DNA of 64,000 nt from Sphaerolaimus hirsutus (taxonomy: Eukaryota > Nematoda > Chromadorea > Monhysterida > Sphaerolaimidae). A program made the translations under genes and the position numbers. Numbering within the stretch: position 1 is the stretch's first letter; the number at the start of each line of letters is the position of its first letter. Shown here piece by piece: positions 3,514-22,563 of this stretch. Location: NCBI GenBank assembly GCA_964036195.1, contig OZ038453.1, forward strand, positions 28,648,997 through 28,712,996. The letters are read 5' to 3'. The notes below the pieces were generated by a model, which was not told where the DNA came from, made no database searches, and saw only the letters and a program-made list of their open reading frames with translations.

Positions 3514-3927
3514 GTATTTGTTTTTTTGTGGCTTGAGCATTGTCAGATATTTTACGTTTTTACTAATTTTACTAGTTTCCGTTTTTACCACAAAAATACG
3601 CCACTCGTCGAATTTGCCGCGGCGGAGAATTGTAAATTCCGGTCCCTTTGCGCTTTTAATTGTGTGCGTAATTAGATAAATGTTTGTTTTTATGGTACGG
3701 GGATTTTACACGCAAATCAGGAACAGCGCCAGTACCCCTTGGGGACCTGACAAGTTCCCGAGGACGGACACAGCAACTTACCAATCCCTTTCGTAACTGC
3801 AGCCGGCGGTTTACTTCGAGTAACTGTTAATAAGCCGTAAATAAAATAAAGCCGTAATTAATAAAATTCAAATTCAAATTCAAGCAGTTAGTATGCTTCA
3901 GGGGGACCAAGTTGGATTCACGGGAAC

Positions 3928-3933
3928 TTTATT
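3928..3933 (-). terminator. Polyadenylation signal AATAAA in the LTR
   Basis: The coding strand reads CTAAATAAAG about 430 bases downstream of the LTR TATA box. The copy in the other LTR lies near 20150. The position fits the end of the R region. Confidence 0.5.
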
Positions 3934-4357
3934 TAGCAATGTAGTCAGAGTCAATTTCACAATAACACAAGTGAGTCGTATAGCCTCTAGTGGGTGAAAA
4001 AATGTAAAATCAGCGCGTTTTATAATCACCAAAAGTCTACCATAATAGAAATGAATACTAAATCTGAGACACAACAATTAACCGTAATTAGAGAATTACA
4101 AGGCAAAATCAATGATCACTGGAAAACAATTAACATAGCGTACAAGGCATGGGAAAATTAATTGAATGCGGTAAATAAGAAAATACAGACATAAACTAAA
4201 CCAAGCGTAAGGTAACTGTGATTAATATGACGTAATTAAAATAAAATTATCTCAGAGGTGAGTGTCATAAACTGGGTTTCTATTCAGAGGTTACGGTACA
4301 ATTTAGAGCAGGTGGTGTGACACGTGTTATCAACCTGCGCCCCTTTAGGTGAAAAGA

Positions 4358-4366
4358 TATTTTATA
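4358..4366 (-). promoter_or_regulatory. LTR TATA box (3' LTR copy)
   Basis: The coding strand reads GCGCTATAAAATATC, a good TATA box inside an otherwise GC-rich segment. It is identical in the 5' LTR. In this position it would serve only read-out transcription towards lower coordinates. Confidence 0.55.
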
Positions 4367-5202
4367 GCGCGCCCGACCAAGGCCACAGAAAGAACGCTCA
4401 TTTGCGGGGGTTTGTTCAAGGTCATTGCATTGCCGGGTAAGGGTTGGAATTTCGGGCCTGAACACACGCTACAAAGACACTAGCACTTGTGAGTTCACCA
4501 ATCACCCTGGGTGATGGGAATAATTAATTGGCACTGCTGTGCTCTTCACTGTAGACTGTGCTCTGCATGTGTCTTGCAGTCGCATGTTGACAATAATTGC
4601 CGTTTGCCACTTTTCCACCCATTACCTAGTCCTAAATAAAAATGCACTTGGTCGAGGAATTTTCTGAATGTTATCTATCAGGGCGCCAAGGTGTTTAACA
4701 GAGTCGACACCTTTTAGCTGAACGGGAAACTTCAAAGCTTTTCTAACCCATTCCCAGACACTGCACCTTTTTGACCAAATATGTAAACTTGATAGAAACC
4801 TTAATAAATTTAACATTCAAAATTACATATCAGAAAGTGCATTTAGAAAACGAAAGTAATCACTTAATTAACTTAAAATGCGGGTAACTTAATTAGCTTA
4901 ATTAACTAAAACAGGAAATGACACAATTAAAATCACATGGGAAATAGTTACGTAATTAACGGAAAAGAAAAATACTTAATAAATTCATGGCCGCAGTAGT
5001 GTCCATTCGGGCGTACCGTCCTGGGGCTGCGGCTTTGTTGGCGGATTTGCAGTGCACAGCAAACCTCGCATTCACTGTGACTTCCCTGTGCACCGCGGGC
5101 CATCATTCGGTCACACATGGTCATTCTCGAGTCGTCGGAGCGTCTGCACAAAAAGGGTCATTACATTTTACGCATGATTAGCTAGCCATATTTCCACCTA
5201 CA

Positions 5203-5808
5203 ATCCCACCAGCCATTAATTTTTTACCTCCGGGCTAAAAACGACATGTTCAGAAAAAGTGTTTTGCACCGTTTTTTGGTTATTCAAAAGTCATGCCTTC
5301 TCTGCATTTTTCGGTGGATGGCCGTGGCAATCACATGCCCTGGGGGTGCAAATATGGCTCGTCTTTGTTCGAATTATGGCATCAGCTTTCTGCTGTTCCA
5401 GCTTTTTGTGCCCGAAACTTCGAAATTTTGGTTCCCGCACAGGGCTCGATGTGAGAAAAAGTTTTCTTTTTTATTTTCTTCAAAGACTAATTAAATAGAG
5501 TTCTAATTGGGTCACTTCGCAGCATTGTGCCACTGCTGGATGGGCAGTTTGGGATCAACATTCAGATTACCTGCTCGACCGACATGTCGCAGTCCGTGCA
5601 TGTGAAAATTGATCGTCAACAAGATTTTCTAATTATTTTCATGGAATATTAACAAGTATGTTGAATCGCTCGTTTTGTGTTACAAAGTTGTCTGTTTTTC
5701 CTGAAGACAAAAGTTATGCATAAAATGTCGCATTTTGAAACTTTACGTTGTATTCTAAAAATACTGTTTTCTATCAATTTTCACAATTACCATTTTCCAT
5801 GAAATATT
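5203..5808 (-). other. Untranslated stretch between helicase ORF and 3' LTR
   Basis: About 600 bases without a credible reading frame separate the helicase stop from the LTR. A short purine-biased tract (GGCTGGTGGGAT on the coding strand) directly abuts the LTR and may be a weak polypurine tract. Nothing else is recognised. Confidence 0.35.
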
Positions 5809-6869
5809 CTACCTGCTGCGCTGGAGCGGCGGCGAGGGGGGCTCAGCCATGTTCTGCAGTGCCATGGCCGCCATGTCGTTGCTAATGGAGGAATAATCTT
5901 CATTAGGGCGGTAAACTGGCTCAACAACGGGCACCACTTCCTCCACCACCGGCACAACCTCCTCCCGCGCGTCCGCGGAGGAGTCAGAGCCTGAGGAGGC
6001 AATTTCAATATCAGATTGAACTTCCACCAGCAGTTCTTCTTCAAGTGCCGGGTATCTATCCGGTCCGACTAGTTCTTTCAAGTCGGCCCGCGGGCGCCAC
6101 TCCGGTGGCCAGAATCCCAGCACATTTCCCCAGATCTGGCCCGATTCATACGTGTAAATTCTCTCGGTCAGGTGTTCGACCGTCAGAAACCGGTGGAAAA
6201 ACGTCGACCACAACATGGTCTCGGCGTTGGCCACCACCACGCGTACACACTTGGCACGGGAGGTGGCTACGTTTCCCCGGGGCAACTCTGCTACAAATCC
6301 AACTCTACCGTACGCCTTCCTGGGGTCGGCATCCAGCTGGGCGGAGTCGGTTGGCGGGCTGCCGCGCACGCAGGAAATGACGACCACTTCCGCTTCACGG
6401 GCCTGGGCCTTGTCGGCAGTAATTACGCGGGTGGCCCAGTAGGCCGCGTCGTGTTCTGTATGGGCTACTAGGCGACTAATTAGGGCGAGTGCCTGCGCCA
6501 CATAAAAGCACACAATTAGCAAACTAGCGGGGTCCGTGAGATCCGCCCAGGGTAGAGTGGGATCCTCTTTCACTGTGGCCACGAAGTAGTCGTACAGGTG
6601 CAGGATGATGCGCAGTACTTTCTTGTTGATAATTGACATGCCCTCTTTCGATTTGCAGCCTTGATGCACCAAAGTCGATGACAGCATGACGCCGTCCTCA
6701 AAGTCGCCAGGCGAGGGCAACATGGTGGCGCCGTGCACTGCTTTGTCATTGTAGGCGCGCAGCAGTCCATTGTACGCTGCCACAGAGTTCGCCTGAATGA
6801 GCTGGCAATGCCCGCGGAACACTGTTTCCAAGTGAACCACAGGGCATAGTTGGTACGCGCTCCAGGACG
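5809..6869 (-). CDS. Retroelement helicase, C-terminal part (motifs V and VI)
   Basis: This frame continues the helicase begun at 9535 after a one-base shift near 6850. Around residues 145-155 of the open frame VVVISCVRG resembles SF1 motif V, and near 190-200 RGNVATSRAK matches the motif VI signature of UPF1-like and viral SF1 helicases. An upstream segment LETVFRGHCQLI resembles the region after motif III. The last 80 residues are acidic, Ser- and Val-rich and probably disordered. The stop is at 5809. Without the shift the two frames would form one protein of roughly 1250 residues. The shift means this copy cannot make it unless frameshifting occurs. Confidence 0.75.
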
Positions 6870-9535
6870 GGCTCCACCCAGTCTTGCACGCGAATCATAC
6901 GCGTCAATTGTTTACTGTCTCCAAATAGAAGTAGCATGCCGTTCACTGGGAGCTGGGCCGCCTGAACCACGCTAATTACTGCAGCGTCAGACGCCAATGA
7001 CGCTTCGTCAATAATTACCGCACACGCAGTCACACTTTTTATACGGGCGTCGTGGGCGGAGTCTAAAGTGACATAGATTTGACCAGGCTGCACCACTTCT
7101 AAAAACACACGGTGCAGCCTGACCGTAGCCCTGACATATTTAGACAGCGCCCTATGCAGCACCTTACCCCAGAACCCTTGGTCAGCTAAACTAGCCGCTC
7201 CGGCCCGGGCGCCTGCCACGCCTTCCTCGAAGTCGTCAAATGGCTGTTTGTCCCCATCCTCGGCGGTGAGAAAGGGCACTTGTTTGGTCAGCTGCGCGCG
7301 GATAACGGCATCGTCTGTGCAGTTGTTGATGATCTCGTCCACTAGTTCGTAGTCCTTTTTGGCGCCGTTGTACTTTTCCAGCGCTGCCGTCCATTCGGGG
7401 CTGAGGCGGACAATGTTGTGGCCGGTTTGCTGTGCTAGGGTATGCAGGGTTGGTAATTGGGTCGCGGGAATGGTGCTATAAGTAGCATCACTTTCCCACA
7501 TGGGGCTCAAAACGCGCACCGGAAATGCCGCTCTTAATTTCAAAAAGTCTTCGAAACCCTCCAGTTTTTGCATTTCAGAAAATGGCGTATCAGCCATAGC
7601 GGTCCATTTCGCGCGTTCCCGCAGCAAAACTTCCAAAGCCCCAAAAATGTCCCGCTGCACTAATTTATTCAGGTTGGTCAGGGCCCTGCGCGCTCCTTCG
7701 TCGGCCGCCGAGTTGACGGTGCACGTGATGAGCGTCGAGTGGTATTTGGAGTTCGGCTGCTTGTCAGACGGCAAGTTGGAGCCCACGTGTACCCTGGGTC
7801 TCGTGTTGTAATAATTATAGCCGCGCGAACACACATACGCCAGTTGATTTTGTGTGGTCGTCTTCCCAGACCCGAAAGGCGAGTCACACATAATCAAAAG
7901 GGGTTTGCGCATGCGCACGGCTGTGATCACAGCTCCTAAAACTTCTACCTGTCCTTGTTGTGGCAGAAACTCACCTAATTTGGCCTGAATCATTTGTTCA
8001 TTTTTTCCCCTGAACAATGATTCATACAGCTCATTAGCCTCGCGGCTAATAAGCGCCCAGTCAGTTTCGTCATCCAGCAGACGCAAATTCAATATCACAG
8101 CTAATTGGATTTGCGCCTCCAGGGTGAGTACTTTTGACCCCTGAACCACTTTTGGCACCCAGCCGACCGGTGCTTTGTTCAGGGCGGCCTGCAGTGACCG
8201 CATGGTTCGGTCATAATTAGGCGAGTTGTTGGAGCCGCGCACCATGTACCTTCCATCTTCCAGGGTACGGGGCAGTGCGGACTGCGACTCGGTCATGTCC
8301 AATTTCGCACACAGCATTGTAGTGGTTGGCTCTGATTCCACACTGGTAATTCTCACTGACAGATTGGGGCTGCCCGCCGCTGGTTTGTCTTCGTCAGGTC
8401 GGGCCTGCACCAAGCTTAAAACTGACATGGGCGTCGCCTGGTTCAGCAGCTGTGTCTGTGTGTTCACCTGCTCTAATAACCGAACGCGCTGCTCTTCTGG
8501 TCCCTCAAAAGTGTCCGCTTGTAATTCCTCTGGGTCCGGGCGGCGCACCATAATGTTGCATGCAGTGCCCTGTGGCGTGTGTTCCCAGAACACATTTGCG
8601 CACACGTCCGTTGCGCGTTTCGCCTGAAACCGCAGGAATGACTCGTTGTAGCAGTGGGCCGCTGCTAAAATACTCATTTTGTACCTCAAAAATACGTCCA
8701 TGTTGTCTTGGTTCTCTGTGTCCGGCTGATTGCCCGTTGTGCTGATGTCCTTGGCCGTGGCGATCTGCAGCCCGTATGCATGGCCGTAAAATTCGTCACC
8801 AAACACATCCAAGTCGTTCAGGTCGTGATATTCGACATGGGCCAGCCCCAACTGCCCAGCGCTCAAGGTTTCCACTCTGGGGTCACTCACATATTCGCGA
8901 TGTAAAATGACCAACTTTTCCGGCCCTGCATCGCCTCGCTCCGCCGCGCCCAGCGGTTCCAGGTTCTTGTAATTTGAAAGCGTGAAGGCCGCTCGCAGCC
9001 GCGCTGTTTTCCAGTCGCTTGTGTACGGCTGGTAACCGGAAGTGTCGCCGCATGTCAACGTGCGCGCCACCTGAGTTATGCGCCGCGTGCCCTGCGTACT
9101 CACTACAATCGGGGCGGCAATGTTTAAGGGGCATTTTGTCTGGTTACCCCATATCGCAACACCGGTAAACTCCCAGTACCGCGGGTTTTCTATTTTCTGT
9201 GCAATCGCGGTCGCCGAAAAACGCATTCCATGGCGCACCAGGGGCAAAAACATCAAGGGGTGCTGTTTCTGAATTCTTGCACACAGATCCACCAGCTGGG
9301 TAGTCCGTTTGTCTCTGGCCGCTTTTGCCCGCTTTGTTGAATAATAAAAATACGGATATGCCTCATCCGCGTTCACCCATTGCTCATTTTCGCTGAGTAT
9401 TGCCATAGTCTGCTCCGAAATTCTCACATGGCACTGATACTCAACATGCCCGTCGGTACCCGTAGCAATATACACCCGGTCTACCCAACCTTCGAATTTC
9501 CCTCTGCTGGGGTAGACTTCCGGCCCGTTTTGCAT
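6746..9535 (-). CDS. Retroelement helicase ORF, N-terminal domain and SF1 motifs I-III
   Basis: The 929-codon frame has about 540 residues that I do not recognise, followed by a P-loop (FGSGKTTTQNQLAY, near 550-565). A DEAS motif II (VIIDEASLASDAA, near 840) and GDSKQL motif III (near 872) follow. The DEAx box, the GD-x-KQL motif and the roughly 285-residue insert between motifs I and II match UPF1-like SF1 helicases, which act on RNA or DNA in the 5'-3' direction. The ORF follows integrase after about 360 non-coding bases that carry a TATA box, so it is probably made from its own transcript. The true start may be ATG at 9591, one frame away, or ATG at 9535. Codon usage and intactness suggest it was under selection until recently. 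Confidence 0.8.
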   Translation of the reverse strand: MQNGPEVYPSRGKFEGWVDRVYIATGTDGHVEYQCHVRISEQTMAILSENEQWVNADEAYPYFYYSTKRAKAARDKRTTQLVDLCARIQKQHPLMFLPLVRHGMRFSATAIAQKIENPRYWEFTGVAIWGNQTKCPLNIAAPIVVSTQGTRRITQVARTLTCGDTSGYQPYTSDWKTARLRAAFTLSNYKNLEPLGAAERGDAGPEKLVILHREYVSDPRVETLSAGQLGLAHVEYHDLNDLDVFGDEFYGHAYGLQIATAKDISTTGNQPDTENQDNMDVFLRYKMSILAAAHCYNESFLRFQAKRATDVCANVFWEHTPQGTACNIMVRRPDPEELQADTFEGPEEQRVRLLEQVNTQTQLLNQATPMSVLSLVQARPDEDKPAAGSPNLSVRITSVESEPTTTMLCAKLDMTESQSALPRTLEDGRYMVRGSNNSPNYDRTMRSLQAALNKAPVGWVPKVVQGSKVLTLEAQIQLAVILNLRLLDDETDWALISREANELYESLFRGKNEQMIQAKLGEFLPQQGQVEVLGAVITAVRMRKPLLIMCDSPFGSGKTTTQNQLAYVCSRGYNYYNTRPRVHVGSNLPSDKQPNSKYHSTLITCTVNSAADEGARRALTNLNKLVQRDIFGALEVLLRERAKWTAMADTPFSEMQKLEGFEDFLKLRAAFPVRVLSPMWESDATYSTIPATQLPTLHTLAQQTGHNIVRLSPEWTAALEKYNGAKKDYELVDEIINNCTDDAVIRAQLTKQVPFLTAEDGDKQPFDDFEEGVAGARAGAASLADQGFWGKVLHRALSKYVRATVRLHRVFLEVVQPGQIYVTLDSAHDARIKSVTACAVIIDEASLASDAAVISVVQAAQLPVNGMLLLFGDSKQLTRMIRVQDWVEPVLERVPTMPCGSLGNSVPRALPAHSGELCGSVQWTAARLQ

Positions 9536-9892
9536 CTGCTGCGCGCGGTAAAGTTGTCGCGGGGGAATGGTTCCACCGCCACAGGCGCCATGTGTGTTTG
9601 TCTCCTAGGATTTGATGGGCAGGGCGTCTGCACCTTTGAATGGGCGTTTACGAGAGGCTGAAGCCATTATAATTATGTCAACGTGATAAAACAATTAATT
9701 ATGAAATTTTAATGAACGGGGAAAGTAATAAAAACTCGTGCGGTCCAGTTACCCGTGGGCAAAAGGGGTGCACGAGCTTCCTACGCACACACACACACTT
9801 TCACACACACATCACGCTTTTATACCTTGGTCTGGGTGACGTGGCGTGACGGCTGCAGTCATAACAGCTAATTAACACACAATTAATTAATT
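9536..9892 (-). other. Gap between pol and helicase ORF
   Basis: This 357-base gap contains a TATA box (9817-9824), an alternating CA/TG tract (about 9785-9812) and an ATG at 9591 that is out of frame with the main helicase ORF. I see no other gene. Confidence 0.5.
9817..9824 (-). promoter_or_regulatory. Internal TATA box upstream of the helicase ORF
   Basis: The coding strand reads AAGGTATAAAAGCG, a consensus TATA box. It lies 70 bases after the integrase stop and some 230-280 bases before the helicase start. Transcription would begin near 9790. Internal promoters for 3' accessory genes are known in spumaretroviruses, and that precedent is the basis of this inference. Confidence 0.5.
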
Positions 9893-11515
9893 CTAGTCGT
9901 TGCAGTATAATTCACTGTAAGAAGGGGGAATTAAATATTCACTGGTTGCCTTGCAACGATCTGCATGAACTACATATATTTTCCTATTAATATTGTTGAA
10001 CAAAGTCACTAATGGGTGGGCATAATCAATACACTCATACGGACTGATAAAGCGAGGCGCGAATTTCTTACTAGGGCCCGTCAACTGTGTAATACGCGGC
10101 GTGTACACGCGTACCGCTTGCCTGGGTTGCACATTTAATCGACGTGCACGGCGATTGGCGTAAAATTGTTCCTTTTGCTGCGCCTTTGCTAAAGCGGTGT
10201 GCGCAGCTTCGCGTGCTGTGGTCAGACACACGCCTAACTCATTTATAAGAGCGCGCTTATGCGGCAATGAGGGCAATGCCTCAGTGTCAGGGGGAGGCTC
10301 GATCATGCGCTCCCACATGGACGCAGCAGGCTTGCCAAATAGCAACGCATAGGGGGTGGTTTGCAAAGACTGGTGTTTCGATGTATTGTACGCATGTACA
10401 GCGGCTCCTAAATGTATGTCCCAATCAGGGACGTATCCAGGATTTTTGAGCGGGGGGGGCTGCTTGTTTACGGAGGCCGGCGAGGGGGGGGGGCTCAGCC
10501 CCCCCCCCCTAAATTTTTCCCTATATAGGGACGGAAAGGCGTTTTGGCGCTAGCGCCATACAAAGGCGGCACGCCATGGCGCTATTGGCGTTGGCGCCAG
10601 CGCCATGGAATGCTGTATATGTATGTAAATATACATACAAAACAGCGAAAAGTTCAACATTGAGTGTATTTATAGTGATTTGCGGCCACATGGAGCAAAT
10701 CTGATGACAATACCTTATGTCTGGTGAAGAATGCGCGCTTGCGCGCAAAATTTTTGACGCTGACGTTGAAAAAGTCGCATTTTCCGGTCACTTTCTGGTC
10801 CCGCCCCGGGAGGGGGGGGGGCTGCAGCCCCCCCCGCCCCCCCCTGGATACGGCCCTGGTCCCAATTGTCATGTGTATGATTTACGTAGTGGGATACTAT
10901 TTCCATCAGAACACCATTCCTTCGTTCCACCATTCCATTACTCTTAGGGGTGTACGCAAAAGACGTGTGTTGGGTCGCATCCAAATATTGCAAAAGCTTG
11001 GCAAACGTGCCCTCAGTAAAGCTAGGGGCGTTATCACTGAGTATAATAGCCGGCACACTAAATATGGGCAAAATATGCAATAAAAATGCAAATGATACTG
11101 TGTCTTGTTTTATGTCGGGAACGGGCACAGCAATTCAGAAACAAGTACACTGATCAACAAACACTAATACATGTCGGTTTCTGCGTTTCGTGGTTAATAA
11201 AGGTCCTATTGCGTCTACTGCTATCACATCACCTGGCCTTTTGGCTACCTGGCGGCACACCATTTGAGTTCGCATTGCCGCTCTGAGACCTTTCTTGGCG
11301 TTGCACGAAGGGCAAGTAGCAACCCAGCGCGCACTTTCCGGCCGCATTCCTGGGAACCACGCGAACTCCTGCAATCTTTCAAATGTTTTTATTATTCCTA
11401 AATGGCCCGCCGTGGGGTGATTGTGAGCTAATTCTAATACGAATGGAACTAATTCCGACGGAATACACACTGGGTCGTATAGCTGTATACCTGGTATCTG
11501 GGACGTTCCCGCCTG
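9893..11515 (-). CDS. Retroelement integrase (interrupted)
   Basis: The frame opens with an HHCC-type zinc segment (HNHPTAGHLGI, then CPSCN). The catalytic triad regions follow: VIAVDAIGPL (first Asp), ILSDNAPSF (second Asp) and GMVERRNG (Glu). After the inserted MITE at 10426-10858 it continues with YALLFGKPA and a GPY/F-like segment (KKFAPRFISPYECI). It ends at 9893. An in-frame TGA at 11135-11137 lies between the first two catalytic regions. The MITE plus its duplication adds 441 bases, a multiple of three, so the surrounding frame is kept. Integrase inserts the element DNA into host chromatin. Confidence 0.85.
10426..10858. mobile_element. hAT-like MITE nested in integrase
   Basis: The 433-bp insert is flanked by a perfect duplication GTCCCAAT (10418-10425 and 10859-10866). 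Inverted ends are CAGGGACGTATCCAGG and CCTGGATACGGCCCTG. The interior has G and C runs at both ends and a GGCGCC-word segment (10545-10610). The 8-bp duplication and CAGGG ends fit hAT. Confidence 0.88.
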
Positions 11516-12193
11516 TCAACATAGTAGACCGTATTGATCAATAAAATACGGCGCGGCACTGTAAAAATTATCTGCGCGACACACTTCTATAGTTGCGGCT
11601 ATGTACGGTTCTTCCACTTGTAATTGTTTCAACTTATCAACTGGAGTCATGGGAGGTAGCGCCATTATTGTACTGCGCTTGGTTACACTCGTTAAACCTG
11701 GAGCAACTTCATTTCCGGCTCCTGAACCACCAGCCATTGTTCCAGTTCCAGGCGCTTCCGCATTCTGCTGCCGCTCTCGCAGCCCAGGAGACTCCGCCTC
11801 TTTTTGCCCGCGCGTCCGGTCGCTGATTGGTCGCAGTAACTCCGCCTCCTCGTTTACGCCGCCTCGCTCGCTGATTGGCTGGTATGCTGCTCTGCTCGCC
11901 ACAGCTACCGTAACCTGCTTGTCGTGCGGGATAGCAATTTCACGGCACGTAACTTGTGCAAATTGCTCAAAGGCCTCATCCAGGTCCTTTTTCTCGTCGA
12001 ATACCACTGGCGCGTCCTGTCTTCTAGATAACGCATCTGCTAATTCATTGCTTTTTCCCCTCAAATGCTTGAACGTGATTTGATATGGCGTAATTGCTAA
12101 GGCAAACTTATGTAGCATGGCGTGCGGGGTGGTCTCTAAATTGGGATTCTTTACCCATGATATACTCTTGGCGTCGGTCCAGACTTCAAAGGG
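11516..12193 (-). CDS. Retroelement RNase H C-terminal part and RH-IN connector
   Basis: After an in-frame TGA at 12194-12196 the same frame continues with VWTDAKSISWV and LRGKSNELADALSRR, the characteristic end of the Ty3/Gypsy RNase H domain. About 150 residues of Gly/Glu/Ala-rich connector follow, then another in-frame TGA at 11516, after which integrase begins in the same frame. RNase H removes the RNA strand during reverse transcription. Confidence 0.8.
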   Translation of the reverse strand, partial: PFEVWTDAKSISWVKNPNLETTPHAMLHKFALAITPYQITFKHLRGKSNELADALSRRQDAPVVFDEKKDLDEAFEQFAQVTCREIAIPHDKQVTVAVASRAAYQPISERGGVNEEAELLRPISDRTRGQKEAESPGLRERQQNAEAPGTGTMAGGSGAGNEVAPGLTSVTKRSTIMALPPMTPVDKLKQLQVEEPYIAATIEVCRADNFYSAAPYFIDQYGLLC

Positions 12194-13605
12194 TCATCCC
12201 GCCAGATAACAATGCCAATTTCGTATACTTTCATAAATCGCACACGCTTCCAGTGAAATTGCTGGCCACTTGCTTTGGGTTGCACCTAACTTCCGGCTGT
12301 AAAAGGCACATGCATGTAGTATTTTTTCGTCCTCTGCTCGTTGTGCTAACACGCCTGCAACAGCGATTTTAGAGGCATCTGTAATAATTATAAACATACG
12401 CTTGGGATCGGGAAACTGCAAACACAGGCTTCCTAACAACGCTTCCTTGAGCTTATGAAAAGCTTCCAACGCCTTGGGTTTCGATGTCAGATCCACTGGG
12501 GTGTCACTGTTGTAATTTTCCCTTGGTCCCGTACGCGTGAGATTTGACAGGGGTACGGCCAGTTCTGCGCATCTGTGAATCATGCGTCTAAAAAAACCTA
12601 TAGCTCCTAGGAAACCCTTAACCTCTTTTACGGTAGTGGGCACCGGCCAATCCTGAATTATGTGCCGTTTATCATCTGGTACGCACACGCCGTCACGGCC
12701 AATCATAAATCCCAAAAAACGTACGGCTGTGACGCGTGCGAAAAAACACTTTTTTGGACTAATTTTGAAATTATTTCTAATTAACCTTTCCAACACTTGC
12801 CCTATGTCGTATAAATGGGTGTCCCATGTTGCACTGTAAATTAGTAAATCATCAATGTATAATAACACATTTCGATGTATTAATCCGGCCATAGCTAATT
12901 CGAAACAATGTTGCGCTAAACTAGGGGAGCATTTTAATCCCATTGGTAAACGTTTCAGTTGAAATTGCCCAAAAACATTCCTAAATGACGTAACGTGTCG
13001 ATCATCTGGATGCAAAGCAATGTTATAGAAAGCTTGATTTATGTCAGCGCTGCTAAAAATACTTGCAGCTGCATAAAGATTCGACTGTTTCATCTAAGCG
13101 GGGTAATGGGAATTGGGGAGTGTGCAAAACAGCGTTCAGGCGTCTGTAATCAATTACCATCCGCTTTGACCCATCCGGTTTGGATACCACCAGCGTGGGG
13201 GCACAATACGGGCTCGTACTGGGTTCCACGATGTTGTGCTCAATGACGCATCTCAAATGATTTTCTAAGTATTGCTGATCATCCAGACTCAATCGGTACA
13301 TTCTGCAGGCAATTGGTTTTTTGTCCACTAGTTGCAACCGGTAGTCCACTAATTCACTGTAGCCGATGTCATACTTGTGTCGAGCAAAAGCTTCTTTATA
13401 TTGCAAAATCACCTTTTTCAGTTCCTCCCTTCGTTCGTCCGTCAAAGTTTCTGGTACTGTAAATTCCATTATGTGTCCGTCTGGGCATGCAACTTGCAGT
13501 GGGGGCCCCAATTTGTCTTCAGCTACTTTGGGAGGAGGTTCAGTCGCTTGAACTTGCCGACACACATCTCTGTCATAACACTGCTTTACCCATTCAGCGG
13601 GGGGG
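12194..13605 (-). CDS. Retroelement reverse transcriptase and start of RNase H
   Basis: The first segment (to about 13075) carries PTLVVSKPDGSKRMVIDYRR, the fingers of RT. A one-base shift near 13075 moves to the frame that carries SSADINQAFYN, RLPMGLKCSPS and the catalytic YIDDLLIYS (near residue 79 of that segment). RNase H begins at FIIITDASKIAVAGVLAQ near residue 235. RT reaches the preceding protease frame across a run of eight C residues near 13600. Length and motif order are normal for Ty3/Gypsy pol. This copy is broken by the two shifts and by a terminal TGA. Confidence 0.88.
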
Positions 13606-14541
13606 GTCTCCAGGCTTCACCTTCAGCACGCAATCCACTGGCTCGACCACGGCAATGCGCTGTCCTACCTGTAACACTATGGGCTGATTGCGCACATTTG
13701 CACATCTCACCTGAAACACGGGGGCACTGGTTTCATAGGCCGCTGAAGCAGCCATAACTCCACAGCGTTCGCCTACCGTGTCCAATCCCATGACAGTGAA
13801 TAACGTTTCATCCAAAGGAGCAGATAATTTCGCCATTACTAGCGCTTCATGTCTAGCCAGAATTTCTATCTTTTCATTCACAAAAGCGTAAATTCTGCGC
13901 TGCTGAACTTCTCGGTCGGGGTTATCAAATGGAATTATCGCGTTAGCCATGGGAATCCGTAGTTCCCTTGCAGGTAAATCCACTACCATATGCCGCAATA
14001 CATCTGCGCCAATTAGAATTTGACCAGCTAACCCATTCACCGCCTGAAACACAATCCCGAAGGTGTGGTTTCCCATCGTTACAGGTATTTCCATCTGTCC
14101 CAATACCAACAGTTTTGAATCCGCTGCACACCTGAGGGCTCCAATAGGCGATACCTCATCGTGCTTGATAGCCTTTTCCCTGTGTCGCATCAACACGTCT
14201 CTGTTGCACAATGAGCGCATGGTGCCGGTGTCCAGCAGGCACCTTTGATATTCTCTCCCATCGATGGTTATGGTAATGGACGGACTGTAATACACATGCA
14301 CAATTTCTTCACGTCGATTGGCTACTTGATGTATGTTGTCCCTCTCTTCCGGCGAGAATGTAATCATGCATACCGATTCTTCTTCCAGATCGCATTTTCT
14401 GTTTATACTGTATTGAATAGCGGGAAAATGATGCGCGCCTGTGAGTGCGGGCATGCCATTTGGCATTCCCACACACGGGTTAATTACTGTTTGTACCTTC
14501 GCCTGTTCACTAGGGCGATCCTCAGCCAGCTCAACAATCAT
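13594..14541 (-). CDS. Retroelement aspartic protease region
   Basis: The catalytic LLDTGTMRSLC lies near residue 102 and the hydrophobic ILIGADVL near 177-184. These are the Asp-Thr-Gly active site and the C-terminal signature of retropepsins, which cleave the polyproteins. The frame is the same as that of the upstream envelope-like ORF. It follows that ORF's TGA (14590-14592) with only sense codons between, so expression might need readthrough, reinitiation or splicing. About 100 residues precede the active site and about 130 follow it. Confidence 0.8.
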   Translation of the reverse strand: MIVELAEDRPSEQAKVQTVINPCVGMPNGMPALTGAHHFPAIQYSINRKCDLEEESVCMITFSPEERDNIHQVANRREEIVHVYYSPSITITIDGREYQRCLLDTGTMRSLCNRDVLMRHREKAIKHDEVSPIGALRCAADSKLLVLGQMEIPVTMGNHTFGIVFQAVNGLAGQILIGADVLRHMVVDLPARELRIPMANAIIPFDNPDREVQQRRIYAFVNEKIEILARHEALVMAKLSAPLDETLFTVMGLDTVGERCGVMAASAAYETSAPVFQVRCANVRNQPIVLQVGQRIAVVEPVDCVLKVKPGDPPR

Positions 14542-14589
14542 GTTCAGCTTTTCTTCTTTATTTGGTCGTTTCTTGATTTTTTCCTTTGC

Positions 14590-16164
14590 TCAATTCACCA
14601 AAGTCACAGCCGTTTCCGGCGCTGCAGCCATGAGTGCGGCTAGTAAATATTGCATGGTGACTAGCGCACATATCAGGTAAATCCATACTTGTAACCAGGT
14701 GCGCCAGGTGTCAAAATCCCACCATCCCAGCGCCAATACCGATTTTGCCAAGGTTCAATGCCTTTGCATGTGTGATTCCACCTTCGGCTCCACCCCCTGC
14801 GTAATTTGCCGCACAATTGAATATGCATGCCATACGTCATTTAGGGTGGTCGTCAGCAATAATTCTGACAAATTGTACATGGTCGTGGCGGCAAAAATCT
14901 GATGATGCACATCCTTAACCTTTTCCTGTTGCCATTTCTGCGGGAAACTGTGTGTGTTATACATGGGTAAATGTTCCAGGCCACCTACCTCCAGCAGATA
15001 TCTGTACCATTGTCCATTTAACATTACCAAACGATTGTGCGCATTGGTGCATGATCCTGGGATCACTTGAAAGTGCAAAATGTTTGTCAACCTGTTCATG
15101 TGTAACGTCACATTCTGCCCATGCACACGAACTTGCACAGGTACTGTTTCATAACATTCTGGGGACTTTTCCTCTTTCATTATCTTGTATGTTTTGACCG
15201 CGAAACATTTGTGAACCAAAAATCCATCCGGCGCAGGTTTAGCAATTATTTCATTATTGTTCATGTACCAACAGGCTGTCGTAGTCGCATGTTCACTCAT
15301 AGCCAGGCGCACAAACTCTTGAAAGTGCTGCACGTTCTTGCAGGTGGCCACAGCCTGTGCACGCATGGTTTGTTCTGCTGTTTCATATACCGCCTGCATG
15401 CTAGCTGCTAATTGTCCTGCACTCACTATCCCTAACGTGGGTCGACCTTGCGCTCTTTTTTGTCTGATGCTTCGAATCACTGCTTTTTCAAATGGCGCCA
15501 CTACGATATCCTGATCTGATTTCCATAATTTGATGCCGCATGATTCAACCTCTTCATGTGCTCTGAAAGACAGTGATAGCGTGTGATCATCGGCTAGCCA
15601 GATATCCTGTCTAATGCGTCCATGCATTTCACGCCATTTTTCGTATGGACATTCCGCCTTTGGGTTTGGTTTCCATGTTAATTGGCTACCGTCCTCCAGC
15701 GTGCATGCACCCATTTCATAGTTGCACTTGCTAACCTCACCCAGCATACTTTGCATGGTACTGGCTCCATATCTCATTCGTACTTCCCCTCGAAACAGCC
15801 CGCAGTGGGGTGTGGTTTCAATCACCCATTTGCAACAATACAGTCCATGTCCTGAATAGCTAACATTGGTGGGGTATTGGGTGTCCCATGCGTTGTCCAG
15901 GTCATTCACAGGTGTCATGGGCCCATCATTGCATTTGTGGTATTTAATCATGCCTTCACATTCGGCTGCGCCCACTGACCGAGGGTTGGAATCAAACTTT
16001 TCCAGCGTGACATCGCCCCAAAAGTTCTGATACGTCCTCGCAGTTCTGGTAGAGGCCACACACCTGTAAGCTGCTGCACAATATTCTACCATATTTCGCT
16101 TGTAAATTGTCAACGTCAACTTTCGTGGCCGTTCTAATGACGCTGTGGTGTCTATGATAGCCAT
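14590..16164 (-). CDS. Envelope-like glycoprotein, ectodomain and anchor (broken)
   Basis: This frame is Cys-rich, with N-glycosylation sites (NVS near 98, NVT near 350, NLS near 427) and a furin-type RQKR near 232 that would divide it in two. An in-frame TGA near 14752 is followed in the same frame by a membrane segment (WIYLICALVTMQYLLAAL) and a second TGA at 14590-14592. The features are those of a viral entry glycoprotein; the family and fusion class are unresolved. The Cys spacing after the furin-type site recalls the fragment at 50501-51921. Its position between gag and protease is abnormal, because retroviral env normally follows pol. Confidence 0.6.
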
Positions 16165-16167
16165 GCA

Positions 16168-17245
16168 ATTTGGCAGGGGGGGGGTACGTGTATAGATCGT
16201 AGTGGTCCGTCAAGTCACTGCATAGCAATGGAAACGAGGGCATGGTAGTTGCGCCCGCGCCCAGTAATAAGGCTAATCCCATTATAATTAACCCAACTGC
16301 CAATACAAAAAACAGTGACTGTGCGACCTGGGGCATATATGGGGGTTCTGAATAAGCGCGCGGCGCGGGGTGCACCCCTTCCTCAGCAGACAGAAAACCC
16401 ATATACCTATCTACTTGGTTGCTGGATCCAGTGCGCGGCGGCAGCGCAGCCGGCGTGGCATACAGAAAGGGGTCCAAACTGATATTCATGAGCACGTCCA
16501 AGGGCACCTCAGTCAGCGTGTCTGAGTGGTCGTCTGCAGGGCAATTAGGCCACAGCGTGCAGTCCGTTTCTCTCAAGTCATGCATTCCGATCCTGCGTAA
16601 AAAGGCCAACCAGGTAGTTCGAAACAAATAACCTTTTTCGGTCCGCATGTATGCCCATGGTTTGATCCAGAATTCACGCTCTTGCGCGAGCACATGCATT
16701 CCCGCAGTGCGCTGCGGTTCTTCGGGTGGCTCTGGAACCAGTTCGTCAGGTTCCTCTGCTTCTAATTCCAAACCTTGCATCACAGGGATTAATTTATTAA
16801 CAGGACGTATCATCATGCAGCGGTCATCTTCGCGCACCCGCATGGTCATTCCAGTCGTACTGGTCACTCGTGTGGGGTTCAGCGACTCTACGTGGGGGTT
16901 ACTTACCTGTACCGGTTGCATGTTGTATTGTTGCATGCGCCCATCCGGTCCCATAGCCATCCAGGCCGGCGGCGCTTGATATGCCATCATCTGCGGTTGC
17001 ATGGGCATATCACCAGCCCTCTGTACCGTCTGCGCTGGCTGCGCGGGCATCGGCTGAGCTGGTTGCCACTGCGGGTATGCATATTGCATGGGCATCATAC
17101 CTGGCTGCATCGCTTGGGCTTGGTCATTCCTCTGATAACCACCACGTTGTCCTTGCCGCGCCCACGTCCATTTCCTCTGAACGCTCCACCGCCGCGGCTC
17201 CTTTTGAGGTATTGTTCCCTTTGTTCGGGGGTGAGTTTGGGACAT
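16168..17245 (-). CDS. Pro/Gln-rich ORF with signal-anchor, leading into the envelope-like ORF
   Basis: The first 110 residues are Pro, Gln and Met-rich (MQPGMMPMQYAYPQWQPAQP) and overlap the end of gag in another frame. They could extend Gag through a frameshift. An acidic segment follows near 175-195, then a hydrophobic segment near 307-331 (FFVLAVGLIIMGLALLLGAG). A C-rich run at 16171-16179 joins this frame to the glycoprotein frame by a one-base shift. The protein would be a long cytoplasmic leader with a membrane anchor ahead of the glycoprotein, somewhat like spumavirus leader peptides. I do not recognise the domain itself. Confidence 0.5.
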
Positions 17246-19713
17246 TTGTATCTAATGTGCTCTTCAGAGCCACATTCCCAACATCCTTTGTCAAATTTAC
17301 GTGGGGGCAATTTAGGGCGGTCCCTATTCAGTCCCAAAAGTTTACCTTCCAACGCGCCCAGTTGCGCTAATTTCTTCGCTATCTCATGATGCACAGAGTC
17401 AAATTTGGCAACACTCTCAGTCATTTTCTGTTCCATTGCCTCTAATGTTTTGTCGGCCTGGGACGGCAGTCCAGCCATTGCAGGCATATTTAAAGCCATC
17501 AACCTGTCCATCACTTTATCGGTAGCGCTGGCAACCACATCCTGTTTGGATTTTTCTCCTTTATTCTGGCTCTGTTCTGCTTCCAAAAAGCTCTCCTGCG
17601 CACGTGCGTTGTCAACCATCTCTTTCCAGGTGATAGAAGTTGTGACAGGTACATTGCGTCGAATCTCATTCCTCAGTCCTCCATGGAATTTTATCATGCA
17701 TGTGTCACCTCGTTTTTCATGACCCATGCCTGGATAGGCGCGTTTTATCAATTTTTCCAAACGTACCGCCCATTCCAGTACCAACTCATCTGCGCCCTGT
17801 CGCGTCTCGAAAATCTCTCTCTGCGCATGGTGCTTATCATTCGGATTTTCATAGAATTTTTCCAATGCTTGCATCATGTCCTTGTAGTTCAGGTCGCGCA
17901 ATTCTCTGTATCGAGTGTTAAAAATGGCCCTTGCACTGCCTTTTAAAAATAATTTTACCAGCGGCTTCCGTTCCGGTAATTTTATGTGCAGCGCGTCACA
18001 TACCGTGTCCCAGCTCCTTCTCCACTCCCTGAAGCCCTCATTTGGTTTGCCGCGAAAATATCCACATTGTTGTGCTAGGGCCGTAATGACCGCTGCATTG
18101 CTTTGTTCTAATTGCCAATTCTGTCCCGGGTCCGTAGGCATTCCCACTTCAGATGCAGCCAATGAGCTCCTTGAGGACGCCGGCGAGCAGGATCGAGCGC
18201 GTCGCTGCGTAACAGTTCTCACCTGATTTGTTCCAGCTGCCGACGGGGGCGCCACTGGTGCCGTCGATGATTGCAAAGGTGCCGCTTGACCATTGGTCAG
18301 CACTATTACCTGTTGACCACTGGCCGGTGAGTTTCCTCCCAGCGTTGCATTATGATTTTGTAGGGCTTGGTTATACTGTTGGTACGCTGTCGCCAGATCA
18401 GCTACATCATCGCTGTGTAAGCTATGGTGCGCTTCGAATTCCCTCAAATAATGTTCCACCCTCGGTACTTCGGTCACTGGGTCACTTCCCCATAAATTCA
18501 TAGTGATTTTAATTAATGCCACCATGCGCAAGTCACCTGCTTCACCATTCTGCGAAAATGCACCAACCGGTCTCGCCTGACTCATCATGTTTGCCCATTT
18601 CTTTGCAGCTTCACATGCTTTTTTGGGTGTCCATTGTACACAGGATGGCGTTACTTGCACCGGGTCAAGATCCATTATGGTAGCTTGGTAAATTAAATTC
18701 GCATTAGTGACATTTGCATATCTATCTTCCAACGCCGGACCCGCCGTCTGGTTTGCTCCATTATTGGCCATTCTGTCTGCAGGGCTGCTAATAATTATCA
18801 CGGGGGGATTACTTGAGGTTTCGGCCTTAATTAACTGGCGTCTAGCCCTTGCAGTTGCGCTCTGCGATCTCGACTGGTCACTCAATAAATTCCGACTGCT
18901 GTTGCCTGACACGTCCCTTGGCGTCGAAGTGCTCTTCGGTGGTCTCAACTGCAGCGCCGGGGAAGTGTCTCCACTCTGCGTCGCTGTCTCCAGTAGTTCC
19001 GCTACGGTATTTTCAATCACGGGAAATTGATCTGCAGTAGCTCCAAGCTCAGCTGCAATCAAAGGGTAATCACGTTGGATCGACGGCTGCCCTAGAGGCT
19101 CGCTGTCACCAACGTATCCGTCTGAACCGGCTTCAGAACCCGATCGCACTCCAGGCGATATGGATGAGCTGCCCGCGCTCCAACCCAATGTCCTTCGAAG
19201 CTTAGACCACTTACCTGTCTTTCCTGCTTCCTTTCCTGCAGCTCGTCTGCTTGTCCCCGGCGCTTCTTCTGCTTCTGCGCTGGACGTTAGCTGCCGTGCT
19301 GCTGCCGGTACAGCTGGCGTCTTCCACTGACTGAAACTGTCTGGCGCGGGCCCTGCGCCTCCAACCGTTGATAACCTGATTACCGGTGTATCCTTTGCTG
19401 TCTGCCCAGACCAGCGTTGACTTTCACTCTCCTCTAGCGCTTCCGGCGCGTCTGTTTCAGGGTTAACCAAGTCGTTTGACTCACTGTCTTCTGCTTGACT
19501 CTCAGCTGCAGCGGGTTGTGCGTCCACTTCTCGCCCAGCTTTTTGTTGTCGCGCGCGCCTTTGTGCTTGTTTTTGTTTCTCCAACGCAGCGTGCCAAACT
19601 TGTTCTATACTGTCCCCTTGTAAGCTTGCTGGCCCTCTTGATCTCAATTCCCTTTGGGGTGATTCGTTATCCGTGAAGCCGTTTTTTGTAGAGGCGTTGA
19701 TCAGGCGCCCCAA
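17095..19713 (-). CDS. Retroelement Gag
   Basis: The 872-codon frame starts 30 bases after the primer site. Residues 1-330 are Ser/Ala/Gln-rich and low in complexity. A capsid-like region lies near 550-715 (KPNEGFREWRRSWDTVCDAL through the segment ending QREIFETRQGADELVLEWAV), typical of Ty3/Gypsy Gag. A CCHC zinc knuckle (CWECGSEEHIRYKC) lies near 806-820, followed by an Arg/Gly-rich tail. Gag forms the particle and packages RNA. The frame is intact, unlike those downstream. It is longer than typical Gypsy Gag because of the N-terminal extension. Confidence 0.85.
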   Translation of the reverse strand: MGRLINASTKNGFTDNESPQRELRSRGPASLQGDSIEQVWHAALEKQKQAQRRARQQKAGREVDAQPAAAESQAEDSESNDLVNPETDAPEALEESESQRWSGQTAKDTPVIRLSTVGGAGPAPDSFSQWKTPAVPAAARQLTSSAEAEEAPGTSRRAAGKEAGKTGKWSKLRRTLGWSAGSSSISPGVRSGSEAGSDGYVGDSEPLGQPSIQRDYPLIAAELGATADQFPVIENTVAELLETATQSGDTSPALQLRPPKSTSTPRDVSGNSSRNLLSDQSRSQSATARARRQLIKAETSSNPPVIIISSPADRMANNGANQTAGPALEDRYANVTNANLIYQATIMDLDPVQVTPSCVQWTPKKACEAAKKWANMMSQARPVGAFSQNGEAGDLRMVALIKITMNLWGSDPVTEVPRVEHYLREFEAHHSLHSDDVADLATAYQQYNQALQNHNATLGGNSPASGQQVIVLTNGQAAPLQSSTAPVAPPSAAGTNQVRTVTQRRARSCSPASSRSSLAASEVGMPTDPGQNWQLEQSNAAVITALAQQCGYFRGKPNEGFREWRRSWDTVCDALHIKLPERKPLVKLFLKGSARAIFNTRYRELRDLNYKDMMQALEKFYENPNDKHHAQREIFETRQGADELVLEWAVRLEKLIKRAYPGMGHEKRGDTCMIKFHGGLRNEIRRNVPVTTSITWKEMVDNARAQESFLEAEQSQNKGEKSKQDVVASATDKVMDRLMALNMPAMAGLPSQADKTLEAMEQKMTESVAKFDSVHHEIAKKLAQLGALEGKLLGLNRDRPKLPPRKFDKGCWECGSEEHIRYKCPKLTPEQREQYLKRSRGGGAFRGNGRGRGKDNVVVIRGMTKPKRCSQV

Positions 19714-19742
19714 ACAGAAAACTTTATGACTTGCTTAGGAAA

Positions 19743-19760
19743 CCACTCGCTACGCTACCA
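19743..19760 (-). promoter_or_regulatory. Primer-binding site
   Basis: Two bases after the 5' LTR the coding strand reads TGGTAGCGTAGCGAGTGG. It begins with TGG, complementary to the CCA end of a tRNA. The first seven bases agree with initiator Met tRNA; the rest does not, so the primer tRNA is not assigned. Confidence 0.6.
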
Positions 19761-19762
19761 GT

Positions 19763-21425
19763 TGTCAGATATTTTACGTTTTTACTAATTTTACTAGTTT
19801 CCGTTTTTACCACAAAAATACGCCACTCGTCGAATTTGCCGCGGCGGAGAATTGTAAATTCCGGTCCCTTTGCGCTTTTAATTGCGTGTGTAATTAGATA
19901 AATGTTTGTTTTTATGGTACGGGGATTTTACACGCAAATCAGGAACAGCGCCAGTACCCCTTGGGGTCCTGACAAGTTCCCGAGGATGGACACGGCAACT
20001 TACCAACCCCTTTTGTAACTGCAGCCGGCGGTTTACTTCGAGTAACTGTTAATAAGCCGTAAATAAAATAAAGTCGTAATTAATAAAATTCAAATTAAAA
20101 TTCAAGCAGTTAGTATGCTTCAGGGGGACCAAGTTGGATTCACGGGAACTTTATTTAGCAATGTAGTCAGAGTCAATTTCACAATAACACAAGTGAGTCG
20201 TATAGCCTCTAGTGGGTGAAAAAATGTAAAATCAGCGCGTTTTATAATCACAAAAAGTCTACCATAATAGAAATGAATACTAAATCTGAGACACAACAAT
20301 TAACCGTAATTAGAGAATTACAAGGCAAAATCAATGATCACTGGAAAACAATTAACATAGCGTACAAGGCACGGGAAAATTAATTGAATGCGGTAAATAA
20401 AGAAAAAACAGACGTAAACTAAACCAAGCGTAAGGTAACTGTGACTAATATGACGTAATTAAAATAAAATTATCTCAGAGGTGAGTGTCATAAACTGGGT
20501 TTTTATTCAGAGGTTACGGTACAATTTAGAGCAGGTGGTGTGACACGTGTTATCAACCTGCGCCCCTTTAGGTGAAAAGATATTTTATAGCGCGCCCGAC
20601 CAAGGCCACAGAAAGAACGCTCATTTGCGGGGGTTTGTTCAAGGTCATTGCATTGCCGGGTAAGGGTTGGAATTTCGGGCCTGAACACACGCTACAAAGA
20701 CACTAGCACTTGTGAGTTCACCAATCACCCTGGGTGATGGGAATAATTAATTGGCACTGCTGTGCTCTTCACTGTAGACTGTGCTCTGCATGTGTCTTGC
20801 AGTCGCATGTCGACAATAATTGCCGTTTGCCACTTTTCCACCCATTACCTAGTCCTAAATAAAAATGCACTTGGTCGGGGAATTTTCTGAATGTTATCTA
20901 TCGGGGCACCAAGGTGTTTAACAGAGTCGACACCTTTTAGCTGAACGGGAAACTTCAAAGCTTTTCTAACCCATTCCCAGACACTGCACCTTTTTGACCA
21001 AATATGTAAACTTGATAGAAACCTTAATAAATTTAACATTCAAAATTACATATCAGAAAGTGCATTCAGAAAACGAAAGTAATCACTTAATTAACTTAAA
21101 ATGCGGGTAACTTAATTAGCTTAATTAACTAAAACAGGAAATGACACAATTAAAATCACACGGGAAATAGTTACGTAATTAACGGAAAAGAAAAATACTT
21201 AATAAATTCATGGCCGCAGTAGTGTCCATTCGGGCGTACCGTCCTGGGGCTGCAGCTTCGTTGGCGGATTTGCAGTGCACAGCGAACCTCGCGTTCACTG
21301 TGACTTCCCTGTGCACCGCGGGCCATCATTCAGTCACACATGGTCGTTCTCGAGTCGTCGGAGTGTCTGCACAAAAAGGGTCATTACATTTTACGCATGA
21401 TTAGCTAGCCATATTTCCACCTACA
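19763..21425 (-). repeat. 5' LTR of the large retroelement
   Basis: This LTR would drive the element. It differs from 3541-5202 at about thirty positions by eye. The TATA box is at 20581-20589 on the coding strand. Confidence 0.93.
20581..20589 (-). promoter_or_regulatory. LTR TATA box (5' LTR, promoter of the genomic transcript)
   Basis: TATAAAATA on the coding strand lies in the middle of the LTR. Transcription would start about 30 bases further along, giving a long U5 and leader before gag. Confidence 0.55.
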
Positions 21426-21892
21426 GCATCACAATTCACAGGAGACGTAATTGAGTCATGGTGCTTTTGAGTATCATGAAAACAAAAAAAAATGTTGTTT
21501 TTTTGTTGTATGAGGAGTTGTTTGGAGTGAAATCTATACCTGACAGGACTAATTGCAGAAGGGATAGTTTAATTCTGCTCACATGCATAATTGTGCATTG
21601 ATTGCAACAGTTCCCAAGCCATGAGGGGAATTGTATAAACAATATATTGCTGAAGATCACATTAATAGTCAAGTGGTAGAAGAAACTCTGATTTTGAATC
21701 TCAGCAAATTTTTATGTTCAAGTATAAAAAGTTTTTTTTGCAGAGTCAATTACAACTCAACATAAAATGCCTGAAGCATCCTGAAAAATTAATTTTACTG
21801 AAAGTTACGGTTTTGCTGCATTTGCAATGACAAGGCATTTTACACCAATATGTAGTCAACACCCAAAAACATGACTGAAGTGAAGTCAATAC

Positions 21893-22100
21893 TAGTGATG
21901 TGAAAAGCGCCAGAACTTTGGCGCCAAGCGCCAAAAGCGCCATGGCGCTTTCGCCATGAATAGCGCCAAGCGCCAATGGCGCCACAGCAATTTAGCGCCA
22001 AGCGCAATGGCGCCAAAAGTGCCATGGCGCTGTTCTAGACCACGACGCAAGCGCCAATGGCGCCAGGGGATGCTGGCGCCAAGCGCCAATAGCGCCAAAG
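21893..22100. repeat. Truncated hAT-like MITE with GGCGCC words
   Basis: The left end TAGTGATGTGAAAAGCGCC matches the family at 41353-43201, and the body is an array of GGCGCC and GCGCCAAGCGCC words. The matching right end is missing; the array stops just before the donor of the exon at 22116. Confidence 0.6.
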
Positions 22101-22115
22101 TCAAACCACACTCAC

Positions 22116-22242
22116 CAGCCTCAGTTTTTATGTCTTTAGTTGTTGTTGTTGTGTAGATGGGCATTGAAGTCGTGGTTTTTGTCGTCTTTTTTGTTGTCCT
22201 TTTGGTTGTGACTGCAGTTTCTGTTGTGCTTGCTGCATTTGG
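22116..22242 (-). CDS. Thr-rich linker exon of the MAM gene
   Basis: An acceptor (TTACTTCCAG) and a strong donor (GCTG then GTGAGTGTGG) bound 127 bases, phase 0 at entry and phase 1 at exit. The peptide is Thr/Lys-rich (TTKRTTKKTTKTTTSMPIYT), as expected of an O-glycosylated stalk or inter-domain linker. The exit phase fits the phase-1 MAM exon at 2915, and the retroelement lies in the intron between them. The TTTSMP motif recurs in the stalk of the protein at 63745-64000. Confidence 0.6.
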
Positions 22243-22563
22243 CTGGAAGTAATAATCAAATTTGACTATACTGAAGTGGTCCCCAGACAAAAATACAAAA
22301 AATATGATAAATACAAAGAAACCTCTAAAATTTGTACTTCATCTATGCCGCATGATCCCACTGTATCATTGTTGTTTTTACAGGAGAAAATTAGCTGCAA
22401 TGTGAGTATGAAAAATATGAATCAAAAAATATAAATCAAACAATGCTGATTGCTGACACATTGATCTGGCTGTTTACAGAACATAAAAATGGGGTTTGAA
22501 ATCTTATTAAAATTTGTTCCACTTCAATTTGAATTTAATTTCAATTTGAAATTGAATGAAAAC

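Follow-up and report, generated by a model that had tools for sequence, protein, structure and literature searches.

A UPF1/SEN1-type helicase gene as a probable fixed component of a Ty3-like retroelement family in the nematode Sphaerolaimus hirsutus

The closest described parallel to the element reported here comes from moths, in which long interspersed nuclear elements (LINEs) of the R1/TRAS clade carry a tobamovirus-like superfamily 1 (SF1) helicase domain (Lazareva et al. 2015, PMC4686597). Our subject is a long terminal repeat (LTR) retroelement in a 64,000-nucleotide stretch of the Sphaerolaimus hirsutus genome (C4:28648997-28712996, here called the window). The two have in common a full SF1 helicase that is present in many retrotransposon copies, lies 3' of the other enzymes and follows a long stretch without known similarity. 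The moth elements, however, are non-LTR elements with a helicase of plant-virus type fused to ORF2, whereas the helicase described here occupies a separate open reading frame (ORF) of an LTR element and is of UPF1/SEN1 type. Burro and GYPSM1, the giant Ty3-like elements of planarians, are likewise very large and have a mononegavirus-like fusion glycoprotein between gag and pol, but the extra domains named for them are AIR1, Smc, MATH, BIR, ankyrin, BCL2, SUMO-like, dUTPase and midasin-like ones, and the three mentions of “helicase” in the paper concern Helitrons, giant viruses and Teratorn (PMC6431247). Certain LTR elements of bdelloid rotifers also have an extra enzyme gene (ORF3) downstream of pol; theirs encodes a GDSL esterase or a DEDDy exonuclease, and in that paper “helicase” occurs only in the title of one reference (PMC5408684). 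A literature search of titles and abstracts returned no description of an LTR element with an SF1 helicase, which is weak evidence, as most subscription papers and preprints lie outside such a search.

To judge by the sequences of its many copies, it is very nearly certain that a Ty3-like family with a glycoprotein in the gag-pol interval encodes a UPF1/SEN1-type SF1 helicase of about 1,323 residues, as a separate gene downstream of integrase that is fixed and strongly selected. The original prediction, made from the window alone, had read one large ORF with SF1 motifs between integrase and the 3' LTR, well inside a Ty3/Gypsy element. The LTRs, the Pfam domains and the motifs agree with that identity, and the LTR boundaries place the gene inside the element; the gene is indeed a separate one at this place, but in the window copy it occupies two frames, and only intact copies have it as one. 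Being split in this way (frames 9604-6746 and 6894-5809, with the break between motifs III and IV), the window helicase is a damaged gene; its first frame opens right after an in-frame stop near residue 21. In many other copies the helicase is a single open frame of the full length. The gene ends at 5809, and the intact start lies 63 nucleotides upstream of the point matching window position 9604. The region before the P-loop comes to about 597 residues in intact copies, rather than the roughly 540 first estimated.

Searches for further copies covered the 348-Mb genome. With the first part of the helicase, 48 of 739 first-look candidates were scored, one of them the window itself; the other 47 are 93-95% identical to the window over residues 1-920, and in most of them the frame stays open for about 1,330 codons. 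Thirty of the scored places were fetched as loci, and 24 of these have intact frames. A search for the Pfam domain AAA_12, with 150 of 454 candidates scored, gave 148 places assigned to the element by matched range and score and two assigned to host UPF1-like exons. Intact copies of the kind the original prediction had proposed to look for are thus plentiful: a frame of at least 1,285 residues is open at 102 of the 148. Copies without the gene, which that prediction had named as the sign of a one-off capture, were sought from the side of the reverse transcriptase (RT). Here 131 of 1,494 first-look candidates were scored, every one at least 96% identical to the window RT, so the survey speaks for the close family. 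A scored helicase lies downstream on the same strand in 117 of them. At one of the other 14 (L003) it is three bases past the distance limit used, and 400-base probes at the expected place in the remaining 13 contained helicase sequence in ten, including the rearranged L066. The other three stay unsettled: the probe held LTR sequence at L065, integrase sequence at L067 and no element sequence at L074, whose contig carries a scored helicase 18 kb further on. The gene is therefore present with 128 of the 131 RT copies, and none was shown to lack it; a frame of at least 900 residues accompanies 105 of the 131. In 10 of 10 fetched copies the helicase is followed directly by a noncoding stretch (85-87% identity) and then by the LTR (88-90%). 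These counts, with the selection described next, indicate that the helicase is a fixed, strongly selected part of the element family.

The helicase gene is under strong purifying selection. Pairwise counting over the 24 intact copies, which are related to one another, gives a mean synonymous divergence (dS) of 0.145, a mean non-synonymous divergence (dN) of 0.008 and a pooled ratio of non-synonymous to synonymous differences (pN/pS) of 0.063, with a range of 0.048-0.076 when the 24 are resampled. In the 22 copies with a readable integrase frame, pN/pS is 0.058 for the helicase and 0.129 for integrase; since the helicase is at least as constrained as integrase, it must serve the element's own cycle. 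The most constrained part lies before the P-loop (0.048), followed by the core (0.067) and an acidic tail (0.164). Silent changes predominate more strongly among variants common to several copies (0.043) than among singletons (0.235), the pattern expected from selection during the multiplication of the element. On the two sides of the RT recoding site discussed below, pN/pS is 0.037 upstream, in the 15 of 19 copies left after 4 with stops were set aside, and 0.041 downstream, in 16 of 19 after 3 were set aside, which puts the constraint on the helicase in the same order as that on RT.

In type, the protein is predicted to be a divergent UPF1/SEN1-type SF1 helicase. All motifs quoted in the original prediction were found on the minus strand, FGSGKTTT, DEAS and GDSKQL in 9604-6746 and VVVISCVRG and RGNVATSRAK in 6894-5809, and Walker A, DExx and motifs III to VI are present in order (the names I to VI are assigned as we take them to apply). 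Motifs I, III, IV, V and VI are identical in 24 of 24 intact copies, and motif II keeps its D in 24 and is exactly DEAS in 22. The comparison with SF1 families that the prediction had suggested succeeded for AAA_12, which reaches 7.6e-20 in the second window frame and is above cut-off in all three intact copies scanned (86.4-88.5 bits against 27; E 5.9e-25 in one of them), but AAA_11 stayed weak. The prediction's choice of UPF1 as the nearest cellular type holds at the level of the group; within it, a SEN1-type protein outscores UPF1, and both are distant. In a search of PDB sequences, 8ftm and its kin (“5'-3' RNA helicase-like protein”), 8ftm being a fungal Sen1, scored 3.1e-6, UPF1 0.02 and NAM7 0.31. 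Among 5.8e9 proteins (UniRef included), three match residues 840-1190: SEN1, at 27% identity and 2e-5, and a pair of SF1 proteins from metagenomes (1.4e-4 and 0.014). The likeness to UPF1, SEN1 and NAM7 comprises motifs I to VI, the AAA_12 domain and 27-28% identity over the second helicase half. Among NCBIfam and PADLOC models, the second part matched an IGHMBP2-family model at 8.3e-6, far below its cut-off, and MkoA at 1.4e-11; other matches were weak.

Several nearer or other origins were considered and set aside. The host UPF1-like exon is 28% identical to the element helicase over 96 residues but 39-44% identical to SEN1 and the two metagenome proteins; the host exon being nearer to these than the element is, the element helicase is an outlier and a recent copy of host UPF1 is ruled out. 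The protein is no UPF1 orthologue, since no UPF1 N-terminal (CH) domain appears among Pfam matches to E 1 and SEN1-type chains score better. Its best matches are not viral SF1 helicases of nidovirus or tobamovirus type: Viral_helicase1 (0.06) is below cut-off, and no viral helicase is among the nine PDB sequences found to E 0.5. With the first part of the window helicase, the PDB search reached 0.34 at best, with viral 3C-like proteases and a co-chaperone as its only matches, which we take as chance. Bacterial and archaeal genomes yielded a single SF1 protein, at 24%, which we regard as a general helicase.

The element itself, on the minus strand at 3541-21425 (17.9 kb), has a pair of LTRs of about 1.66 kb each, which are 98.26% identical across 1664 aligned columns, start with TG and end with CA, and it has the target-site duplication GCAT on both sides. 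Its features in the window are as follows.

3537..3540, no strand: target-site duplication GCAT, left, read from the sequence
3541..5202, minus: 3' LTR with TG...CA ends, direct repeat of the 5' LTR
5203..5808, minus: 3' noncoding stretch of about 600 nucleotides between helicase and 3' LTR, kept in the fetched copies
5809..6894, minus: helicase second part with motifs IV to VI plus the acidic tail, read in a different frame in the window copy; AAA_12
6746..9604, minus: helicase first part, N-terminal region of no known similarity and motifs I to III, by frame and motifs
9893..10549, minus: integrase C-terminal part, by reading the frame
10715..11134, minus: integrase core, interrupted by a short inserted repeat in the window copy; rve 1.5e-4, 22.4 bits, below its cut-off of 32.6
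11135..11515, minus: integrase zinc-binding domain; Integrase_H2C2 2.2e-16
11516..12193, minus: remaining RNase H and linker, an open frame with no Pfam match
12194..13093, minus: RT from motif A on, with RNase H; RVT_1 2.3e-22, RT_RNaseH_2 4.3e-26
13053..13064, minus: AAG UAU UUU UAG site, RT resuming in the +1 frame
13053..13616, minus: RT N-terminal part with the stop inside RT; no Pfam RT match for this piece alone
13594..14589, minus: aspartyl protease region; Asp_protease_2 0.085, below cut-off, DTG seen by eye
14755..16209, minus: mononegavirus-type fusion glycoprotein in the gag/pol interval; Monjiviricetes_fusion 1.7e-5, 23.5 bits, below its cut-off of 27
15992..17251, minus: frame overlapping the gag end, linker and hydrophobic start of the glycoprotein; hydrophobic stretch seen by eye, no Pfam match
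17095..19734, minus: gag frame, capsid region and CCHC knuckle; Pfam matches all below cut-off
19743..19760, minus: probable primer-binding site (TGG..., 2 nucleotides past the LTR), read from the sequence
19763..21425, minus: 5' LTR, direct repeat, ends read from the sequence
21426..21429, no strand: target-site duplication GCAT, right, read from the sequence

The coding order is therefore gag, glycoprotein, protease region, RT, RNase H, integrase and helicase; noncoding sequence and the 3' LTR come after it. The gag matches are Retrotrans_gag at 4.6e-5 (24.0 bits against a cut-off of 24.1), PNMA at 2.3e-4 and zf-CCHC at 0.12. The Ty3/gypsy order of protease, RT, RNase H and integrase is present, with the protease placed by its weak match and position and with the integrase core below cut-off. 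By its LTRs, this domain order and the RVT_1 and RT_RNaseH_2 matches, the element is classed as a Ty3-like LTR retroelement; an SF1-bearing LINE is ruled out, as the LTRs contradict a non-LTR structure. In the window, neither Rfam at its gathering scores nor the tRNA scans gave a match. PHROGs gave none for the five frames compared, and neither did the IMG/VR viral contigs, searched with RT, each of the two helicase parts, an alignment of the helicase and a helicase piece of the second family described below. The integrase of the window copy is cut by a short repeat at about 10480-10890 on the minus strand and is uninterrupted in copy L004.

The RT is encoded in two frames: AAG UAU UUU is followed by UAG, and motif A resumes exactly one base on (+1). 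The window shares an identical site with all 19 copies located by blastn among 20 fetched (L031-L050), and the site looks like programmed +1 recoding within RT. Silent diversity near it has no unique dip, which speaks against recoding or is neutral. Upstream, the glycoprotein frame continues through the protease to the RT stop in 14 of 20 other copies, as a single frame of 1,174 residues in L044; the same stretch is broken in the window copy, as its helicase is. Where gag overlaps the next frame in the window, no correctly phased slippery heptamer was found. The integrase-helicase spacer (window 9605-9892, minus strand) has a divergence of 0.058 per site in 22 copies, with the first 63 coding bases included, and of 0.078 in 28 copies. 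This is about half the silent rate and gives a hint of a cis signal for the production of a helicase mRNA, possibly a splice acceptor or a promoter. A TTT(T)AGGAAGCTCGTG segment in the spacer of 24 of the 28 copies, absent from the window copy, is possibly such a splice acceptor.

The same genome appears to hold a separate, unrelated Ty3-like family with an SF1 helicase of its own, known from sampled pieces. A genome search for AAA_11 gave 28 matches among 98 scored candidates, 18 of which, at 14 places, lie within single open frames of 604-1,183 residues. At C2:19285700-19294850 (about 19.29 Mb, plus strand), the sampled pieces come in the order gag, SF1 helicase, glycoprotein, protease and RT, each over its cut-off: Retrotrans_gag 6.6e-7, AAA_11 3.6e-14 (53.6 bits, in a frame of 1,159 residues), Monjiviricetes_fusion 4.9e-9, aspartyl protease 3.3e-8 and RT 4.6e-23. 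In a sister at C2:8325200-8334120 (8.33 Mb), a helicase piece exceeds the AAA_11 cut-off, and pieces that by eye resemble gag and protease lie where this order predicts them. With all 72 candidates scored, the helicase piece of this family matches 63 stretches of the genome. Frames of 900 residues or more hold 26 of these, at 45-100% identity; among the weaker matches, several come from different parts of a single gene, at 37-41%, and short ones may be host exons. The RT of the second family is 37% identical to the window RT over 109 residues, and pairwise BLAST of its helicase, of which a 267-residue piece was compared, found nothing shared with the first past the P-loop. In both helicase-bearing families, a glycoprotein of mononegavirus type occupies the interval from gag to pol.

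HIV-1 and similar viruses must borrow a host-cell helicase, which makes a retrovirus-like element with a helicase gene of its own unusual. We consider the chances about even that large, glycoprotein-bearing Ty3-like elements recurrently encode an SF1 helicase of their own as a replication gene, with at least two unrelated lineages of one genome as instances (gag-env-pol-helicase and gag-helicase-env-pol); such elements would then replicate more like large RNA viruses with a helicase of their own than like HIV-1, and the first lineage would make its RT through the stop-codon +1 recoding site. In the mechanism that we propose for the first family, the helicase would be translated from its own mRNA, spliced or internally started, and its large N-terminal region would bind element RNA or proteins. 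The UPF1/SEN1 group moves in the 5'-3' direction. Driven by ATP, the enzyme would travel 5' to 3' along RNA or an RNA/DNA hybrid and strip structure and bound host proteins from the element RNA, so that the cleared 17.9-kb genome could be translated, packaged and reverse transcribed, in parallel with the use of SF1 helicases by large RNA viruses. The direction is stated for UPF1 in one study (PMC3484045). Our preference for this mechanism over its rivals is tentative and falls a little short of even odds; for the sequence-based statement and the mechanism taken as a whole, we would put the probability at roughly 0.6. If true, the rule quoted in PMC4686597, by which plus-RNA viruses encode a helicase when their genomes exceed 7 kb, would extend to reverse-transcribing elements. 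An element with its own conserved helicase would also make the contribution of a helicase to reverse transcription, packaging or RNA survival directly testable.

A number of findings weigh against this reading. Motif II is altered in 2 of the 24 intact copies (DEVS, DKAS). The three intact copies scanned for AAA_11 score 19.8, 20.0 and 15.9 bits, all under the cut-off of 27, and a profile of 13 copies matched the 8ftm group alone, at 0.0053. The P-loop and DExx are about 285 residues apart, which we believe to be wider than in UPF1 and its group. These traits, with the retroelement coding and the large N-terminal region, set the protein apart from UPF1, SEN1 and NAM7. That region matches nothing in the searches, and its substrate is thus a guess: the first 952 residues of the window frame found no protein among the 5.8e9, either whole (E to 0.01) or with the core alone (E to 0.1), in a search that depends on shared five-residue words and may miss distant kin, and a single-sequence structure model of the first part has a mean predicted local distance difference test (pLDDT) score of 33.7, too low to use. 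The copies behind the pN/pS values were picked for open frames and high score, and selection is silent on which step the helicase serves.

That last point leaves room for other roles. The UPF1/SEN1 grouping is also compatible with a helicase that acts as a UPF1 antagonist or decoy, displacing or mimicking UPF1 to shield element RNA from nonsense-mediated decay. The stops after gag and inside RT each precede many kilobases of downstream RNA and should invite such decay, the host has a UPF1-like gene of its own, and UPF1 binds the long 3' untranslated region of HIV-1, with retroviral protection from UPF1 raised as a possibility (PMC3484045). Yet SEN1-type proteins outscore UPF1, the UPF1 N-terminal domain is missing from the Pfam matches to E 1, and the unrelated-looking SF1 helicase of the second family fits a general replication role as well; we regard the antagonist or decoy as unlikely, if still the strongest competitor to the RNA-clearing mechanism. 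Less probable again is a suppressor of silencing by the Piwi-interacting RNA (piRNA) or small interfering RNA (siRNA) machinery. This role was proposed for the tobamovirus-like SF1 domain of the moth R1 LINE, on the strength of a complementation assay described by its authors as preliminary (PMC4686597), but the helicase here is not of tobamovirus type, as the Viral_helicase1 score indicates, and no link to small RNAs was found in the analysis. The broken state of the window copy might suggest a one-off capture or a passenger of one copy; the 148 element places with an AAA_12 region, the 128 of 131 RT copies with the gene and the strong purifying selection refute this, and it can be dismissed for practical purposes.

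The window holds other traces of mobile elements. A separate relic of a fusion glycoprotein lies at 50501-51960 on the minus strand; Monjiviricetes_fusion matches it over cut-off (4.1e-7) on 51574-51960, and the next frame contains a hydrophobic stretch and a tail. A related LTR remnant in the opposite orientation, at 55529-56858, is 68-80% identical to the LTR of the element, and GC-rich repeats (GGTGCGGTGC and related units) are scattered at 409-470, 1082-1218, 21892-22338 and 42864-43335.

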